A program made the translations under genes and the position numbers. Positions 5,697 through 49,947 of a DNA stretch of 64,000 nucleotides are shown here, in pieces. This DNA comes from Chaetoceros tenuissimus. Its lineage: Eukaryota > Bacillariophyta > Thalassiosirophyceae > Chaetocerotales > Chaetocerotaceae. The notes under the pieces are model-generated. The model was not told where the DNA came from, made no database searches, and worked only from the letters and a program-made list of their open reading frames with translations. Each line of letters opens with the position of its first letter. The stretch's first letter is position 1. The DNA lies in the NCBI GenBank assembly GCA_021927905.1, contig BLLK01000075.1, forward strand, positions 186,001-250,000, written 5' to 3'.

Positions 5697-7975
5697 CTAA
5701 TAGCCAAAAGAACGGATTGCTGTAGCACCATTAGCCATTCCAACAATGTCTGCTTTACCATCTCCATTCGTGTCAGCTATGAATCTTGGATGCCTAGATA
5801 CCAACCATCCAGTATTAGTTGCGAAAGAAGTTGAGACTCTGACTGCAGAATCCCAACCACCATTACCATTGGAAAAGGATACGTAGACACCATCAGCATA
5901 ACAACCAATAATATCTTTCTTTCTATCTCTATCTACATCTGCAAGAAAACGAGGATGTGAAGTAACTCTCCATCCGCTCCCGTACACAAAGAAATTACTG
6001 ACAACTGCGATTTTTGCATCAAAACCATTGCCATTTGAGTATGCAACAAAGACATCAGCACCACCAAACCCAACGATATCTGCTTTGCCATCTCCATTCA
6101 TATCAGTCACAAATCTTGGATGCATATCTTCTCTCCATCCATTATTAGTTCCAAAATTATCAATCACTCTCTTTGGCGCATCAAAACCACCATTAGCATT
6201 CGAGTAGGATACATACATGCCATCATCATAAAAACCAATGATATCTTTCTTTCCATCTCCATTCACATCTTCAAGGAAGCGAGGATGCTTATCAACAAAC
6301 CATCCGGTACCACTTAATCTTGTAAAGAAATTAGTGACGATTTTTTTTTTGCACCAAAGCCATTGTCATTTGCAAATGCAACATAGACATCATAATTGCC
6401 AAATGCAACAAGATCTGCTTTGCCATCTCCATTCATGTCAGTCACAAATCGTGGATGATCCTCTACCGTCCATCCAGTACTATTTCCAAAATCATTATAC
6501 ATTTTCACAGGTGGCGTAAAACCAGTACTCTCGGAATACGATACGTAAACACCATCATTATAGAAACCAATGATATCAGCTCGGCCGTCTCCATTCACAT
6601 CTTCAACAAAGCGAGGATGGTACTCGACTCTCCAGCCATGATCATATCCCATAACACCTGTTAGCATATATGTTGGGGTTTCAAAGCCGTAGCTTGGAGT
6701 TGAAAGGGTAACCACAACTCCTGAGTTAGGGAAGCCAACAATATCAGGCTTTCCATCACCATTCACATCAGCAAGAAGACGTACATGTTTTTCAATTCTC
6801 CATCCTCTATTGTAATTATAGTGATCCACTGTTAGATCGGGAACTTGCGTTGGAGAGAGACTGAGCGAAGGCAAATTAGATGGACTTGAAGAAGGACTGA
6901 GCGAGAGGGAAAGTGATGGCGAATCGGACGGGCTTAAAGAAGGACTGAGCGAAGGTAAATTGGAATGGCTCAAAGAAGGACTAATTGATGGTAAATTGGA
7001 TGGGCTCAAAGAAGGAATTGTGGAAGGACTGCTTTGTGGCTCCAAAGATGGTTCATCTGTAAAGATATTGGAAGACATTATTCGTCGAGAGATTGTGAGC
7101 ATTCTTAACAAATCGATTCAATCAGTTTATCATGGTTACATTCACTTACCACTTCCAATCACAAAGCTTATTTGTTTAGCAATGACATTGGTTAAATCGC
7201 CAATAATGTTTTGACTATCAATTGTTGAACCATCTCCAAATGTACCTCCTCTGTTAGTACCCACGGAATGCACGGATTTGTCGTCGAATATAGCATGCCC
7301 AGTGTATTCACCAACTTGCATTGATAGAAGAGACTTTACTTTTGTTGAATCTTCTTCTGTGATTACACACGTGGCACTCATCGAAAGTGCCATTTGTACA
7401 GTCTTCTTCCCAGCTGAGCTTCCATCCATGATGCTATTCATTCCAAGCTGTCCATCTGCATTGAAGCCCCAACAATACATTGCTCCATTGTTCTGAATCG
7501 CACAATTATGATATGCTCCGGCTTCAATATCAATCACATCTACAAGAAGGACAGAGCCTTTCTTCACTTGTATGGGAGTCGCTGAGTTCGCACTTGTTTC
7601 ATCTCCGAGCTGCTGAAAGCCATTGGATCCATTGCACCAGACATGCCCATCTTGGAATAAAGTACAAGTATGATCGTATCCAGTGACAACTTTTTTAGGC
7701 TTGGCGGTAATACTATTTGGAAAGTTCAATAGAACTGGAGTACCAAAGGCATCGGAAGAAGGTTGTCCAAGCTGCCCATAATAATTGTATCCGACACATT
7801 GAACCATATCATATGCTAGCAAGCATACATGAGCGGAGCTTGAGAACTGAAATGGTTGATCCTCATTGAGATATCTACTAGCAGGACGACCATGGGTGCT
7901 TTCCGACAATACTTGTAAAGGAGGAACTAGTACAGAAGCAGATACTATAGCTAAAGCATAGTTCTTGAACTTCAT
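5697..7975 (-). CDS. Secreted RCC1-like / SPS-linker / VCBS-repeat fusion protein
   Basis: The gene reads from ATG 7975. Exon 1 (7975-7150) encodes a signal peptide and about four RCC1/BLIP-II-type repeats with motifs such as HTCTLFQDGHVWCNG and MYCWGFNADGQLG. A GTAAGT donor at 7149 and a TTTACAG acceptor ending at 7057 define a 93 bp intron; splicing keeps phase (codon G|AT). Exon 2 continues with a Ser-Pro-Leu linker (PSLSPS units, about 50 residues) typical of diatom secreted proteins. It then has seven VCBS/FG-GAP-like repeats of about 55-60 residues, each with D-x-NGDGK-x-DI, a likely calcium-binding loop; one is degenerate (DVDRDRKKDI). In the reference sequence the frame breaks at a T10 run (6341-6350); one base fewer would restore it. 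Likely an extracellular or cell-surface adhesion-type protein. Without splicing, a TGA at 7144-7142 would end a 277-residue RCC1-only form. Confidence 0.7.
6341..6350 (-). other. Homopolymer T10 that shifts the VCBS gene frame
   Basis: Ten T bases (A10 on the coding strand) fall between the third and fourth VCBS repeats. Upstream frame ends soon after; downstream repeats continue in the -1 frame. Either an assembly/sequencing indel or a real frameshift. Confidence 0.75.
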
Positions 7976-10675: not shown

Positions 10676-12679
10676 TTACCCGTCTCCTTTGTGCAGATAG
10701 TTTGATGGCATAAAATAGCTTCGCATCATTTTTACTGATTTTCTTTCGTTGCCCTTCTCGTATTTACTCATTATCGCTTCTGCGTTTCTTACCCATCTTT
10801 CTTTTCTTTTAACCTTCATTCTTTTGATCTTATCTTCCTTGCTTTTGAATATTCTCGCATCCTGTCCTAAATATGTGTTCGGTATCTTTTCCTTCTTCTT
10901 AAATATCGCTGTTATTCTTTTGTTCAAATCCTCATGCTTCCTTTTATTTTCTATACTTTCTTCATTTCTATGAATTTCTTCATTTCTAGTTTTCCATGTT
11001 GCTTTAAGTAACGACTGGCATCCTCGTATCATATGTCTAATCTTCGTGGTTGCGTAAGTTTTTGTATTTATCCGCTTGTTGTATTTTTCTTGCAATTCGA
11101 ACCATTCTTCTCTCCAGAATCCCATGAAGAATGCCCTTTGTCCCCTAACCCATTGGTCGGTCACTACGTTCTTCGTCTCTTCCTCCCAATCATCATTTGG
11201 CCTTGGTTCCTTATCCTCTGAAAAGCATTCTAATAGGTGCATTATTGCGTCTCGTATTTGTTTGCTGGTATGCTTTTTTAGTTCTTTCTCCAGCTCCTCT
11301 AGTTCGTCTTGCAATGCTAGCTTCCTCTTGCTACACTTGCATGTTATAAGATGGTCGTTGTTTTCCACCTCTTGGCAGCTCGGGCATCTGTCGCTATCAT
11401 CGTGTTTTCTTCTTTTCATATTCTTCTTAGTTGGTAAAATATTCATCCCGTATTTGAACAGGAACAGTTTGCTCTGTTCTGGCTGTTCCTTGCATAATTT
11501 TTGAAAGTTCATCCATTCTTTGTCAGATATTGTGATATCATTGCACTTCCTTTCCCATATCATCTTCATTTCATTCTCGTAGCATGCTGCTCTTATCTCT
11601 TTCTCGATGTTGCCCGTAATCCATGTTCTTAATCTTATTGAGTAGATTTTCCAACTTTGCCCTTTGAGTATTCTTTCTTGTGTGACTTGTATGTTCCTTC
11701 TCAGTTCCTCTTTTGCCATTTTGTCGACATCAACGTTCGCTTGTGCCATCACATCCAGCTTATCATACGGTATCTTCTTATCTTGGTGCCCTTTAACATG
11801 TTTTTTGGTCCACTTCAGTGGTGAGATGCTCAGATGGTACCTGATCATGCACAATAAATCGTAACATTGCCATCTTGAATTAATCTGTCTCCAACCAAAC
11901 GAGGCATCCAATGCCCCTTTGTTGTCGCATACCATGGTCGCTCTTCCTTGTATATTCTTCTCCTTTGCAACTTTATTTGCATATATGATAGACGCTAATA
12001 TCCCTCCTAGCTCTCCTCTATAGGAGCTCTGGTTTGACTTGTTCCCTGGAACCGTAGTTGATATCTTTATTTTCTTCCTTGGAACTGTGGTTACTGCTGC
12101 ACTGGATCTGTCACCTTTGTATGAACCGTCACTTACAAATACTGCTGTTCCTTGCCTCATTTCTTCTGCTAAAATCTCTTTCTCTTGTTCATTGTCCTCT
12201 ATGCATCGAAGGATCCATCCTTCCTCGTCTTGCTCTTCTTCTTCAAATACTCCCACTTGTCCTTGGCATTTGATGTATATGCCTCCATTTTCTTGCTGCA
12301 CCGATATCGGTTTTATGCTTCTGTTTACCTCTTCCTCGCTTCTGTCGTAGAAATATGCTTTTCTTCTCACCCTTAAGTTCATTGGTTTATATACCCTATA
12401 CTCATTGCCGATCTTTTCATATATTTCATCATTCTCGTGATCGTAGCTCCATTGAAGGTATTTTTCTATTTTGCTATCCCATACAAGTGATGCCTCCATT
12501 CCTAGTTTTCTATTATGTTCTGTTATCGTATATTCTTGGCACAATGCATTAGTCCATAGCTCTTTTTCTTTGCGCGTCGGTTCATCTACGTTTGGCCATA
12601 AGTAGGCAGTTGCTGAGGGGGATGGGGATGTGCTTTTGTTCCCAGTTAGAATATTTTCGTCAATCTCCTTTCCATCAGT
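10676..12679 (-). mobile_element. 5'-truncated LINE fragment: RNase H plus CCHC zinc knuckle
   Basis: The frame is open from 12679 to the stop at 10676, with no ATG at its start, as expected for a 5'-truncated non-LTR element. Numbering from the codon at 12544, an RNase H domain occupies about residues 133-280. Acidic catalytic residues fit D139 (VSDGSY), E178 (YRGELGG), D207 (VCDNKGALD) and D274, with H249/H253 in KKHVKGHQDK. About residue 400 is a C-x2-C-x8-H-x4-C knuckle (CPSCQEVENNDHLITC), typical of the C-terminus of LINE ORF2 proteins. No reverse transcriptase remains. The rest is Lys/Glu-rich and helical. The truncation point lies within a few dozen bases of, or overlaps, the stop of the adjacent gene at 12675. 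A domesticated RNase H gene is less likely because no start codon is present. Confidence 0.75.
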
Positions 12680-38669: not shown

Positions 38670-39136
38670 TAATTGGATTTATTTTTATTGCTATTAAATT
38701 AATAAAAGTCAACCAGAGCTAATTAAAGAACGCCAGTGTTGTTCTGGCGGACCTTCAATGTATCAGCAACGGTGAAGTGAAGAGTTACATATAACTTCTT
38801 TGTCCGTGCATGATATATAGTCGCTACGTCTAGTTACTACGTTTTTATTTAAATAATATAGGTTCAGTAACTAGTGTACAAATGAATACTATGTCTATCT
38901 TGAAGAAAGGATACGCCATGTAGTAATGGATCAGTAGATACAAATAATTACTCTGAGATAATCTCTGTTATCTGATCTCTGAGGGACTTTCTCATGTCAA
39001 ATAAAAATTGCGCGCCTAAATCCGAACCCCCTCAAGAACGTTCTTCCAACTAAACGGCCCAGCCACAGAAAAGATCCAAAAGATTTAAGTTTCGACATCA
39101 AATACAATCATAAAATCTTCATGAAACGAAATAACA
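38670..39136. other. Intergenic region upstream of the CobS-CobT gene
   Basis: AT-rich; no gene, and no cobalamin riboswitch-like structure that I can recognise by eye. The last 100 bases are the likely 5' leader. Confidence 0.5.
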
Positions 39137-41747
39137 ATGGCACCAAATAATGGACTTGCAAATGCCAAGCCCAAAAAAAGTGGCTCAACTACAATCCTCG
39201 AATCTGGGACAGTAGAAGGAAGAGGAATGGGAACAAACATCAACTCAAGACAAGTTATTTCCAAGCAAATTCAAGAGTTTCTAGAGGGAGAAGGTAAACT
39301 CTCTCCTAAAGCTGAATTCAGAGCTTTCTTCACAGTATGGTCTTTTGTCACTCGTTTACCAAGTCCTACGTGGGTTGATCATCATCCTGGATACTTGATG
39401 AGGGGGTGAGTCTCTTTAGTTATTTTTTATTGGAGAAATCTTGTCGTTGCTTCATCCGATGCTTTTCCTAATTTATAAGTTTTTCCTTTTTGTTGCGACA
39501 GTATGGCATACTTTCCTTTGAGTGGACTGTTGATTGGAATGTTTGTATCTTCCTTTTTTGACTTTGCACATGTAGCACTAGCTTTGCCATTGACCATCTC
39601 GAGTGTTTTAGCAGAAGTAGCTTCTATTTGGGTCACAGGCTGTTTCCATGAAGATGGATTAGCAGATTCTGCAGATGGAATAGGAGGAGGATGGAGCCGA
39701 GATCAAATTTTGAAAATCATGACTGACACTCGACTTGGCACATATGGGTGTACTATACTTTTATTGTACATGATTGCAAAAGTGGAGTTGATTGCCGTAG
39801 CTGGTGCTTCAGTTTGGACTTTGGGTGCATGTTCTGGTGCAGGTCCAAGTATATTGGTGACACAAATGATGGCAAGGTTGACAGCGCCCATTTTGATTCG
39901 CACTAGAGATTATGTTGATGAACAAGGGCCAAAATATAAATTCTATTCCTTTATGGTGAAGGCAAAGCATCTTGTATCGTGGCATAGACTCATATTTGCA
40001 GCCATGACTTCGTTTGTAGTTGCAGCTTTGGCTTATGGTGCCGAAAAGGGTTTCATTTTGACTACAGCTGTAATCATTGCTTCTGGATTTGCTGGAAGAT
40101 ATGGGGAATATCTTTTAGGTGTAAGTGATTCCATTGTAAACAAGCTTGAATTGGTCGTTCCTTCTCGACGATACATACAATGCTTCTCGACGAACATTCA
40201 ATTCTTACTCCAAGAATCCATGCCTAACTTTATCTTTCGTTTCTCACAATTAGGGAGTAATGGGCGACTTTCTAGGTGCAACTATTTGTGTTACTGAAGT
40301 ATTTCTATTGATAGTTCTTACTTTAATTCAGAAATTGAACGAGGAGGGAGACTTCTTTTCCTACTTGATTGCACAAGCATATGATGTTGGTGTAGGTAAA
40401 ATGACACTTCAAGACTTGATGAGAAACGAAAGGAATATTGCACTTCTACAATTCGTTTTGGTTGTACTTTTGACTGTCATTTGGTGCAGTAATGTTGGTC
40501 ATCCTCCCGTATTTGTAAGGGAGTCTGTAGTTGCAACGAAAGAAGATGACCAAATTCGTATAGCTCTAGATAGTGATTCAAGCAACAAGAATGAACTTTC
40601 TCCACTCGATCAATCTCTAACATGTCCAAGCAAAAGCTTCAAGAGAAAGTATGAATCAGCAAGGGATTACTTGGATACTTTGGCTAAACCAAAGGGAAGT
40701 TTAGGCACTTTAGAAGATTGGGCAGCTAGGATTTCAGTTTTACAACAAAGTTCAAAACCAAAAATAGAAAAAGCATCTTGCTTGATTTTTGTTGGAGACC
40801 ATGGTGTAGCAAAAAGTAAAGAAGAAGGAGGCGAGCAATGTTCAGCATATCCTCAAGCTGTCACTCAAAAAGTTGTCGAGGGCTTAGAAAATGGACTTGC
40901 AGGCGCATCTGTATTGGCCAAATGCAACAATGTCAGTTTGAAGGTAATCGATGTTGGAATGAATGCTGATTTTGATGAGGGCGAAGTTGTCATTGTTTCG
41001 CCTCATAAATTGCACGGAGGTACAAAGAACTTTTGTCTCGGCCCAGCCATGTCAAAAGAAGAGATGGATAAGTGCATCGAGGCTGGTGAAGAATCCACGA
41101 AGCAATGCATAGAAAAGGAGAAACCTGATGTGCTAATTTTTGGAGAAGTTGGTATTGGAAATACAACCACAAGTTCTACCTTGCTCGCTGCCCTAACAGG
41201 TGTAGCTGTGAAAGAACTTTGTGGTTATGGAGCGACAATGACTCGAAACGGCGAGAGTGAAATAGTCTCAAATAAAGTCGCCATTGTTGAAAATGCTATG
41301 AAGTATCATCAACAGCTAGGATCTTTCGACCCACGATTTGTTGATCTTGCACTTCGAAGTGTGGGTGGTGCAGAAATTGCTTCTATCGTCGGTGCATTGT
41401 TTGAAGCATCTCATCATAGTATACCAGTTTTGATAGATGGATTCATCGTCACGACAGCGGCAATGGTAGCAACTATAATGAACCCTGAAGTTAGTAGAAT
41501 TTTACTTTTTGCAACAAAGTCAACAGAGAAGGGCCAAGCTGCAGCATTTGAAAAAATAAATGAATATACGAGAGACCATGGATTACCAGAGCACGTACCA
41601 GCAGCATTGGATATGAATCTTCGCATGGGAGAGGCTACTGGTGCATTGATGTGCGTGCCTATATTAAAAAGTGCTGCTGCAATGATGAAGGACCTAGCTA
41701 CCTTAGATACTGTTTTGAAACTTGAAAGAAAATCTTCTTCTTGCTAG
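39137..41747 (+). CDS. CobS-CobT fusion: cobalamin lower-ligand assembly enzyme
   Basis: Exons 39137-39405, 39502-40120 and 40254-41747 (donors GTGAGT, GTAAGT; acceptors GCGACAG, AATTAG) join in phase to 793 residues. About residues 60-390 are CobS (adenosylcobinamide-GDP ribazoletransferase): several membrane helices, MAYFPLSGLLIG, the metal-binding HEDGLADSADG at 139-149, TRLGTYG, and GGVMGDFLGA created by the second splice. About 430-793 are CobT (nicotinate-nucleotide:dimethylbenzimidazole phosphoribosyltransferase): YLDTLAKPKGSLG, GDHGVAKS, GEVGIGNTT near 593, DGFI and RMGEATGA with the expected catalytic Glu at about 756. CobT makes alpha-ribazole phosphate from dimethylbenzimidazole; CobS attaches alpha-ribazole (phosphate) to GDP-cobinamide. 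A fusion could channel the intermediate at a membrane. The first exon has no obvious signal or plastid transit sequence. Confidence 0.9.
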
Positions 41748-46245: not shown

Positions 46246-49200
46246 TTAATGATTTTCAGACGAAAACTTTACAAACCCTAAGTTGACCCACCATTTAAAG
46301 GCAGGTTCATCTTGAACTTTCAATACTACAGCCAATTCAGCCAGGCCAAGTGGATCACCTTCCTTCACGTTCTTTAGTGAGATCCAACTTGTAGACTTAT
46401 CTCTCCATTTCACTTGAACTTCCCAACCTTTGGTAGTTACAATGTTCCTCTCAACACCGGCATTATTGAAGTACATGCCCCTTTCTTTGGGAACGGCAAT
46501 AGAGTCATCCTTTCGGATGTCCAAGAATTCCTCGATGATACCACTATCCCATCCATGCTCATCTGCTTGTTCAAACAAATTCTCAGCAATCATATTGACA
46601 GAATACTCTTCAACTCTCCCATCAGGGAATTCGAGGTCATAGACTCTTGTATCAAGGATAGGATTCTCATTGGCATCTCCTACAGGATTACCTGCTGCAT
46701 CACGCTTACGACTCTTGACTTTGGTCAGTACAGGGATACCATCCTTGTCTGGCACAACAACTTTGGCATTGATATAGTTATCCAATGCTTCCAGGTATTT
46801 ATCATCAACATTCTCCAGCTTAGCCTCATGCAACTCTGCTCCATATGGTAGCTGACACTCATCATCCTTGATAGGGTCTTCAAAAGCATCGTAGTAGATT
46901 CGTTGAGGGTAGATGTTATTATAAATGGGCTCCTTAGTATTTCCAATCTTCTCATGTATACAGTCCATGAAGACATTCCTGCGTCTCTTCATATCATCAG
47001 ATTCAAGTTCATGATCGGGAATTGGAATAACGGATGAGCGAGCTATGTAGTTACCATTGCTTAGGAGCACCCAATGACAAAAGGATTGTCCCACTTCGTG
47101 TGCAGGACCCAACCAGCGGCAGATCTTCTTGCTCTTGGAATCCTCGTCAAAGTAGTAACACCATTGGAACCAGCCAAAAGAAACATACTCTGAAATATCG
47201 GGGGTATAGTGCATTATCATCTCATAAGGTGTTCTCCCCTGGAGATCAAACCGTCCAGTTGCAAGTAATGACAAGAGATCCGCAGTGTACTCATAACAGA
47301 AGCACCATGAGAGAAGATCCGACCGGATCATCTTGTACTGAATCAAGTATGCTGGATGAAGTAGAGAACACAGATCTCGGCTGAGAGAAGAAACCTCCAG
47401 GTATACTAGGATCCCAAGGAAACTTAGCAGACATAACAAGCCTTTGACAGCTGTGAATTTCATCAGCAGTAGGACGACGGATTGGTATGAATGGCAATCC
47501 GCCATCATATTCAACTGGAAGCACAGTACAACAAGGAAAGCTTATTGTTTGTGCGTGCGGATCAGAATAATATCGCCTAGGTCTCGTATCAACCCTCACA
47601 TCAGACTCCTCCGCCTGTATCGGATTCATCAAAGAGTCATCCATCCTATCACCAAGGTATATTGAATTATTACATTCGATGATGTATGTCTTGCTATCAT
47701 CGTTGTCATATGCATAAAGAACATTTGCAATGGGTGAATCCGGAATAGTTCCAAGTGAAGCACTGAATCCACCAGCAGTAACAAACTTGTCAACAACAAA
47801 CTCAACTCCTCGACATAGGCATGTTTTCCAGCACAATTTGTATCTGCCCAAGAGTCGATACCAAGTCTCGTACCACGCTGATGTTCATTGGTAGTCAAAG
47901 TAGGATGCACAAAAGATTCAACATCAAAAGATGATCTAGTTGCAGAGATTGTAGTTGTAATGAATGCTCTAATTGTATAAGTTGGAGTGCAAGTGGAACG
48001 AAGTGATAGTCTCTGAAACAGTCTACGGGACATGAGAAATAGGCCAGCCATCAGTAACAACTGGCATATAAGTCAAGAGATTCGATTACCATTCGCATCG
48101 TATACATGTCCAGAATATGATCGACCATTTACCATAGAAATAACACTAGAAGCATCACCATTACCTCCCCTTGATGCAGACAAGCCAAATGCTTGACCTG
48201 CATTATTGGTAGTGATGGTTCCAGGGATAGGAGGAGCAGCTGGAGGAGACGGTGGTGGAAGTGGTGTACCAGCACCATGGGTCTGTACCTGCTGGAACTG
48301 TCTAATATTCATTTGAGACTGAATCGCAGCAACAATGCTTGGAGAAGGAATAGCGTTACCATCACTGTTAACTGTAAAACCATCAGGTGGTGTACAGCTG
48401 TCTTTCCATCCATTATCGATTTTAGCTTGTTGTACAGCAGCTTTCTGCATTCTAGACATTTTGGAAAACATTTCCTGAGGGTAGTTTCTGGCTTCTGCTG
48501 TAAAGTTAGGAAGACCTGGAGGGTTGTGGTAAGGATTATTGTTCTGGTAAGAGCTTCTACCTCTACCACGCCCACGACCACGGCCTCTGCCACCTCCTCT
48601 TCCAAATCATCCACCACGTCCTCTTCCTCTACCTCCTGTATCGACATGATTGATTCGTCTATTGTCGGTATGTGATCCATCTCCCCTTAAGGTACAATAT
48701 TGTTGCAGCTTGGAAGAAAACAAATTATAATAGGTATCAAAGTCTTTCGGTCCTTGAATATTATCCCAGGCCTGTTTTGCATCCACATGGTATTTGATTG
48801 CAGTGTCGTTCTTTAATCCCTGACAGAAACTCTGGATCTTCTGATGATCATTCAGCGCATACTGGGCACCACCATTTGCTGAGTCATTAAAACACTGTGT
48901 CATACGATTATAATAGTCCTCCAGCTTGAAGCGGAGCTTGTCTCCAGAGTAATTCAGCTTAGCCAAGTCTGTTGCCGCTTGGGATGCCTTGTTTTGGAGG
49001 TATGTATCATTTGCAAAGTGATTGGTGAAAGCAAAATGAAGGTTATAACCCTGTTTTCGGGGCTGAAATTGTTTCACAATGTTTGCTCCATTTCCGGAAG
49101 TTCCAATGTACTGAAGATACAATCCAAAGAGAGTCTGTTGATCTTCTTGAAATTTTGGTCCTCTCCTTGACAAGCATGCTCTAAGCTTCAATTTCCTAGT

Positions 49201-49947
49201 CTGATGGATATCATTGAAATTTCCATCAGCTTCACGAACAATGTAATCGATTGATACACCATGTACACTCTTTGTACGTGAGACGACAGTTAGGAATTTT
49301 GCCATAAAATCATCATAGTTATCCGAAGTAAATTTGGGCACAGTAATTTCTGGAAGAGTTATAGACTCATCATTGGCTTTATCCTGGAGCGCTTGATCAC
49401 AATAATTCTTCATAAGATTTAGTTGAGCCTGGTCTAGAGCAGCAAGACCTGCAGCATCATAAAGGGCATTACAATTTGCTCTATCTTTAAGAGTGAATGA
49501 CAGTGCCTTGAGATTGGCATGTAGAAATTACGCTGTGCAGCAGCACGACCAGAGTTGGAAGAATGGACTTGCTTGATGAATTCATCGATGTCAGATGCTG
49601 AAATTGTCATCAATCGTCTAAACGTTGGAATATAGGCAACCAGTTCTGTGTGAGCTCTAGCAACAGCTACACCTAGAACATTCTGCACAAATGCAGTGAA
49701 AGTCGGGGTATCGTCCATTCTATTTATTTGGAAGATATGGAAAATTTAATTAGCAAAATACTTTGATTTCATTCCATAGGAATGCTCACACGGTTACTTG
49801 CTCCATAGGCTTCTGCTGAGCTCCCGACCATAACTCCAGTTGATCAGACTGAGTTCTAATAATATTGGTCGGGCTCTCTATAAACATAAGGTTTAAATAG
49901 AGAGGTTCTTTCCATCTGTGAGCCGAGGTGTACTATGTTGTATAACA
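46246..49947 (-). mobile_element. Degenerate Ty1/copia-type retrotransposon (diatom CoDi-like)
   Basis: Reading from a candidate 5' LTR (49947-49783), a Gag-like frame starts at ATG 49718. It changes frame near 49520, continues at 49413-48607 and ends in a Gly/Arg-rich RNA-binding tract that contains an in-frame TGA (about 48608). The same frame resumes to 48073 (FTAEARNYPQEMFSKM...). A protease-like core GIDSWADTNCAGKHA follows near 47880. The region after FVTAGGFSASLG, VLYAYDNDDSK and RYYSDPHAQTISFP (47800-47390) is joined directly to the C-terminal part of integrase (RFDLQGRTPYEMIMHYTPD, 47250 to 46246). The integrase catalytic core is therefore missing. The frame ends shortly after FKWWVNLGFVK, with no reverse transcriptase, RNase H or 3' LTR. 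A dead element with at least one internal deletion, several frame breaks and a 3' truncation. Confidence 0.8.
49783..49947 (-). repeat. Candidate 5' LTR of the Copia relic
   Basis: On the minus strand it starts TGTTATACAACA, contains a TATA-like CTCTATTTAAACC, and could end ...GTGAGCA, about 65 bp before the Gag start. The TG...CA ends fit an LTR, but without a second copy the borders are tentative. Confidence 0.4.

Follow-up and report, generated by a model that had tools for sequence, protein, structure and literature searches.

The main new point of this analysis is that a B12-requiring diatom, Chaetoceros tenuissimus, keeps CobS and CobT in a genome in which no recognisable route to GDP-cobinamide was found; the two enzymes are fused in one chain. 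A splice reconstruction yields a single 793-residue protein from three exons at positions 39137-41747 on the forward strand of the window, by which we mean the whole 64,000-nucleotide stretch that was analysed. The CobS-CobT fusion is confirmed as a genuine nuclear diatom gene, with its splicing in the cell predicted from the sequence. Its features, in window coordinates, are as follows.

39137-39405, forward strand: exon 1, encoding residues 1-90 (codon 90 is split), a hydrophilic N-terminal extension followed by the first part of CobS
39406-39501, forward strand: intron 1, GT-AG, 96 bases, G+C 0.33
39502-40120, forward strand: exon 2, carrying most of the CobS domain with its HxDxxxDxxD motif (PF02654 hit in the whole-genome search, E 9e-30)
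39647-39676, forward strand: CobS motif HEDGLADSAD (residues 139-148), fitting HxDxxxDxxD
40121-40253, forward strand: intron 2, GT-AG, 133 bases, G+C 0.38
40254-41747, forward strand: exon 3, end of CobS, linker, entire CobT and stop, in a single open frame
40254-40277, forward strand: second CobS motif GVMGDFLG (residues 297-304), fitting GxxGDxxG
40428-40493, forward strand: predicted hydrophobic helix at residues 355-376, an addition within the linker (its blocks have pLDDT 59-69)
40494-40622, forward strand: disordered linker (residues 377-419; AlphaFold pLDDT below 50)
40650-41708, forward strand: CobT domain (residues 429-781; PF02277, E 3.4e-89; fold match to solved CobT)
41145-41147, forward strand: Glu594, at the alignment position of the glutamate in the GE(M/L)G stretch of bacterial CobT
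41631-41633, forward strand: Glu756, at the alignment position of the glutamate in the GEG(T/S)G stretch of bacterial CobT, and invariant in the alignment

When the three exons are joined, the reading frame is kept across both GT-AG introns. An in-frame stop at 39122 lies upstream of exon 1, and with intron 1 retained exon 1 would reach a stop at 39407. For intron 2, four GT/AG choices leave the frame open, and the two that use acceptor 40253, with donor 40121 or 40136, also preserve GxxGDxxG; the donor chosen in an earlier, sequence-only reading of this DNA is GTAAGT. The frame of exon 3 runs for 497 codons, from the GxxGDxxG motif of CobS through CobT, compared with a maximal stop-free run of 184 codons in 20 shuffled windows. 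Since the second CobS motif, the linker and the whole of CobT lie within exon 3, this portion of the fusion is independent of splicing, and since this exon is unbroken, the claim of a single chain leans on splicing for the first 296 residues only. The sequence-only reading had proposed one spliced gene with CobS first, and both the in-frame GT-AG exons and the Pfam placements (CobS at residues 68-315, CobT at 429-781) agree with it. The three stretches it had singled out as active-site motifs, HEDGLADSADG, GEVGIGNTT and RMGEATGA, were found at residues 139, 593 and 753.

A Pfam search of the 793-residue protein returned only CobS and DBI_PRT (CobT) at E values up to 0.1. The CobS match (PF02654) has an E value of 4e-39 and scores 135.4 bits against a family cut-off of 23.2. 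Its catalytic motifs, whose counterparts in E. coli CobS start at 80 and 225, are intact, and the half would be expected to act as a cobamide-phosphate synthase. In Salmonella CobS, the changes D82A, D86A and D89A in the first motif and D229A in the second are described as abolishing growth on cobinamide plus 5,6-dimethylbenzimidazole (DMB) (PMC8092220). Hydropathy predicts several membrane-spanning helices in the fusion, and a structure model of a bacterial CobS homologue (Dyadobacter) is almost entirely helical. Comparison of a bacterial CobS model with solved folds gave no clear match, the best Foldseek E value being 0.3. The best VIA-align result (Z 7.1; 4.9 A over 164 residues) was to a CDP-DAG synthetase and lies in the range that the tool describes as "possibly a common arrangement only," so a kinship of CobS with CDP-alcohol phosphotransferases is supported neither way.

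The CobT half (PF02277, DBI_PRT) scores 299.8 bits against a family cut-off of 22.6. In an AlphaFold model of exon 3, the CobT part mostly has pLDDT above 90, and Foldseek matched it to solved CobT structures with a TM-score on the target of 0.86 to 0.91 in the 17 best rows (for 1wx1, TM 0.90 on target, E 1.4e-25). We take Glu594 and Glu756 to correspond, by alignment, to E174 and E317 of the Salmonella enzyme (E174A and E317A are named in PDB titles); in E. coli CobT the matching glutamates stand at 175 and 318, one off the Salmonella number. With its motifs intact, the CobT half is a probable phosphoribosyltransferase. Both halves score below the respective equivalog cut-offs, CobS at 94.9 bits against 110 for TIGR00317, a bacterial model built for prokaryote annotation, and CobT at 291.3 bits against 319.3 for TIGR03160, as divergent eukaryotic proteins may do.

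The region between the two domains is longer than first described. In seven aligned bacterial CobS sequences, the chain stops about 15 to 28 residues past GxxGDxxG, which corresponds to a position near residue 326 here. With CobT starting near residue 429, the linker spans about 100 residues, in place of the roughly 40 given by the sequence-only reading, a figure that matches the disordered second part of the linker alone (about residues 376-419). The linker helix at residues 355-376 has no counterpart in the seven bacterial CobS sequences aligned. The model of exon 3 is likewise of low confidence over the CobS end (residues 297-326), because the alignment contained CobT relatives only. According to passages of PMC8092220, loops 2, 4 and 6 of Salmonella CobS are cytoplasmic and the N terminus lies on the loop 2 side; a helix after loop 6 would thus leave the C-terminal end of CobS on the opposite side of the membrane. 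With the added linker helix, CobT would again lie on the same side as the active site of CobS. Judged by eye, the fusion has a hydrophilic N terminus.

We asked how each half relates to its bacterial counterparts. A BLAST search with the CobS half printed 21 hits at 29 to 41% identity, the first 16 all from Bacteroidota, while the CobT half returned hits at 32 to 36% identity over many phyla with no clear nearest group. In a CobS tree of 69 rows, the diatom sequence sides with Bacteroidota, Vibrio (here V. jasicida and V. splendidus) and some other Pseudomonadota (39 rows, support 99/94), and within that side 37 rows group with the diatom (99/87). The HEDG form of the first motif, which we suggest ourselves, and not as an established criterion, as a marker of remodelling CobS, occurs in 38 of the 39 rows on the Vibrio/Bacteroidota side, counting the diatom, and in none of the 29 E. 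coli-side rows that can be read there (one further row, of 30, lacks the region). An AU test did not reject a tree in which the diatom CobS was held with the E. coli side (p 0.426), and the diatom sequence, on a long branch, agrees with the Vibrio side at only 4 of the 12 columns that separate the two sides. A quick CobT tree gave the diatom a branch of 2.12 with unsure placement. In trees and BLAST searches alike, both halves are on long branches and near-identical to no bacterium. Among the bacterial loci, two from Marinifilaceae (L024 2947-5069 and L032 2920-5067) carry two tandem CobT genes with CobS downstream; in the quick tree, the first copies pair with each other and so do the second copies, as if specialised.

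The pathway inventory was drawn from family searches of the whole genome (41,027,912 bases in 68 contigs; the window is part of contig C59). CobS and CobT have one match each in the 41.03 Mb. Methylmalonyl-CoA mutase (MCM) was found in six pieces, which indicates that the exon-wise search does detect split genes. The sequence-only reading had suggested looking for CobU and for MetE and MetH: MetH is present, the MetE C-terminal domain was not found in the genome, and CobU stayed below its cut-off. The sole CobU match (E 0.038; 19.1 bits against a cut-off of 27) was taken as chance because its 147-residue frame fits leucine-rich repeats better (LRR_5, 1.8e-11) over an overlapping stretch. CbiZ and CbiB had no match in the genome at E values up to 1, and CobY was not above its cut-off (E 0.09 over 46 of 183 positions). 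Nor was BluB found above its cut-off in the genome, where two nitroreductase-family proteins (L098 1114-1842 and L099 496-1248, both on the reverse strand) gave weak matches. Both were rejected as BluB, one scoring 49.6 bits against an NCBIfam cut-off of 150 and the other being assigned by Pfam to Nitroreductase (PF00881); the L098 protein has an apparent EF-hand at its N terminus, by eye. The pathway family searches gave positives in 5 to 14 of 14 control genomes, with CobY above the cut-off in 1 of the 14 and BluB in 3, and a guanylyltransferase that is divergent, non-homologous or located in an assembly gap would escape them, so these absences are not proof. With no match to CbiZ or CbiB and neither CobU nor CobY above cut-off, the textbook supply of GDP-cobinamide to CobS is not evident. 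The earlier description of the gene as two steps of the nucleotide loop pathway therefore stands for the two domains, both of which are present, and is incomplete as an explanation.

We propose that the membrane-anchored fusion of this B12-requiring diatom remodels cobamides, with CobS itself swapping the lower base, a reading to which we give even chances. The CobT half would convert DMB and nicotinate mononucleotide to alpha-ribazole phosphate, and the CobS half, beside it in the membrane, would join this product to the corrinoid. Because no recognisable enzyme making GDP-cobinamide was found in the genome, we further suggest that CobS opens incoming pseudocobalamin by reversed phosphotransfer with GMP and then closes the corrinoid with the DMB nucleotide that its own CobT supplies. 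Overall, the lower ligand would be exchanged and free cobinamide never formed, and holding both activities in one chain would concentrate the DMB nucleotide locally and bias the exchange. In its strict form, the fusion would be a self-contained exchanger in which GMP shuttles on and off, with no call for a cobinamide kinase, a guanylyltransferase or a cobamide hydrolase; this stronger version we put forward tentatively, as rather doubtful.

Reversibility is common among phosphotransferases that replace a nucleoside diphosphate link by a phosphodiester. The remodelling test of V. cholerae CobS by Ma et al. in 2020 was reportedly done in E. coli, which has CobU. Passages of PMC7733943 cite V. 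cholerae CobS as a remodeller that acts on neither cobalamin nor cresolylcobamide, and PMC8092220, in the part bearing on this point, describes in vitro data for CobS remodelling as lacking. Chlamydomonas has CobT, CobS and CobC, and its metE mutant is reported to grow with pseudocobalamin plus DMB and not with cobinamide plus DMB; cbiZ and cbiB were identifiable in no algal genome analysed there, and the main text makes no mention of CobU (PMC4850488). The failure on cobinamide could be an uptake problem. Taken together, the Chlamydomonas growth data, V. cholerae CobS and phosphotransferase reversibility suggest that CobS may open pseudocobalamin with GMP and reclose it with the nucleotide that CobT makes. 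Reversal of CobS with GMP is our own hypothesis, stated in none of the passages of the papers cited here. A remodelling role had already been put forward in the sequence-only reading and is plausible for this fused diatom gene, though the lack of an evident GDP-cobinamide supply was not foreseen there and the linker helix was missed.

A rival account that we regard as possible, while leaning against it, is that the fusion works forwards only, with GDP-cobinamide coming from a guanylyltransferase that is unrelated or escaped detection, once pseudocobalamin has been opened by another enzyme. The forward reactions are the established function of the CobS and CobT enzymes as described in PMC8092220, a non-homologous replacement of CobU exists in archaeal CobY, and genome searches can miss weak matches. 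However, such conventional loop assembly sits poorly with the inventory, in which none of CbiZ, CbiB, CobU and CobY was detected above cut-off though the split MCM gene was found, and with the inability of the Chlamydomonas metE mutant to use cobinamide plus DMB (PMC4850488, as above).

We think it improbable that the fusion mainly scavenges DMB or alpha-ribazole for the repair of damaged cobalamin. Passages of PMC9296465 report that marine dissolved matter contains a compound matching alpha-ribazole in mass formula and that alpha-ribazole supply affects plankton communities. With no BluB above cut-off in the genome, DMB may also have to come from outside. Yet with alpha-ribazole as substrate the CobT half would be superfluous, although its motifs are intact, and GDP-cobinamide would still be required.

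Diatom cultures usually contain bacteria. The splicing model is read from sequence, and an artefact (bacterial contamination, mis-assembly of two genes or a decayed gene) is nonetheless very unlikely, given GT-AG introns, an exon 3 continuous across the CobS end and CobT, intact motifs, long branches with no near-identity to any bacterium, codon use in the CobS and CobT halves that correlates at 0.89 and 0.90 with that of ten other long window frames, and silicon transporters in the same genome; contamination and mis-assembly are rejected on the introns, codon use and long branches, and the sequence-only reading had likewise argued against contamination. The silicon transporter family gave eleven matches in the genome, which mark it as that of a diatom, whereas of 14 control genomes one gave a signal, below the cut-off. 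Three of the eleven lie head to tail at C17:442278-446357, each listed with a 1459-residue open frame, the third with two stops inside the match. The window has a G+C content of 0.386, and Rfam found nothing above its gathering scores there. Among the ten neighbouring frames, six have a Pfam family match, including TPR, FKBP, Notch-type LNR and a zf-RVT match below its cut-off, and four have none. The zf-RVT frame, 622 residues at 10676-12544 on the reverse strand, may be a retroelement remnant. Also on the reverse strand of the window, 46246-49413 has a retroelement-like appearance by eye, and adjoining frames at 5697-7975 with repeated NGDGK/NGDGR-type and Ser-Pro-rich stretches could, also by eye, be pieces of one repeat-rich gene.

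If the proposed lower-ligand exchange by the fusion is true, the exchanger would be a minimal cobamide-remodelling machine, and it would account both for the lack of CbiZ and CbiB in the remodelling algae studied and for the inability of the Chlamydomonas mutant to live on cobinamide. Marine Synechococcus make pseudocobalamin, described in PMC4850488 as hardly usable by most algae tested, and the fusion may let the diatom turn this poorly usable cyanobacterial B12 into usable vitamin. It predicts growth of the diatom on pseudocobalamin plus DMB. In 2020, passages of PMC7733943 still called the algal remodelling genes unidentified; COBT and COBS were candidates, and the fusion ties both candidate activities to one locus. 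A single protein would suffice to test whether CobS alone swaps the lower base.

We then asked whether the arrangement occurs elsewhere. No frame with both CobS and CobT was found in 91 loci (80 genome, 10 plasmid and 1 viral, the last being the only viral relative), left from 96 after excluding five from the diatom genome itself. These loci, some of which are truncated by contig ends, held 68 CobS frames and 91 CobT frames, and the genome loci are the best 80 of at least 582 relatives found with the CobT alignment, a sample thus selected by CobT likeness. Single-sequence scans of viral_contigs and genome_contigs returned no relative. In 49 whole prokaryote genomes, drawn from those behind the 80 genome loci, the 52 CobS matches lie in open frames of at most 458 residues, too short for the fusion. 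A literature search at the level of titles, abstract beginnings and passages found no CobS-CobT fusion, and the word "fusion" is absent from the main text of PMC4850488. The screen covered prokaryote, plasmid and viral loci, and the fusion may well be shared by other diatoms.

Other fusions of CobT were seen, in each case with a partner other than CobS. In Flavobacterium palustre (L029 2299-3981), CobT shares a 561-residue frame with a BluB-type DMB synthase domain (155.7 bits against a cut-off of 150; Nitroreductase by Pfam). Loci L036, L037 and L067 have CobT frames of similar length (561 to 564 residues). A Chloroflexi locus (L062 75-1796) has a frame joining CobT to CobC, the alpha-ribazole phosphatase, this being a stop-to-stop frame in which a start in between is possible. 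With the bacterial nucleotide-loop enzymes the diatom protein has in common the two domains, the motifs and the catalytic residues, whereas the screened bacterial loci encode CobS and CobT as separate proteins; the diatom has them fused, its linker contains an added helix, and its genome showed no CobU above cut-off. The CobS of V. jasicida and V. splendidus has the HEDG motif as in the diatom but is separate from CobT. The CbiZ and CbiR pathways likewise replace the cobamide lower ligand, although as described in passages of PMC7733943 they rely on a dedicated hydrolase, after which the loop is rebuilt, and CbiZ was not found in the diatom genome. Also close are the algal COBS and COBT of Chlamydomonas reinhardtii and Pavlova lutheri (PMC4850488), eukaryotic homologues that, like those of the diatom, occur with CbiZ and CbiB lacking. 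As described there, the presence of COBS and COBT in algae correlates with use of pseudocobalamin plus DMB, and another diatom, Thalassiosira pseudonana, is listed as negative for both. That paper names the algal COBS and COBT as separate proteins, in contrast to the one chain of the diatom. Algal COBS and COBT have thus been known since 2016, and the CobS-CobT fusion is a new arrangement of them.
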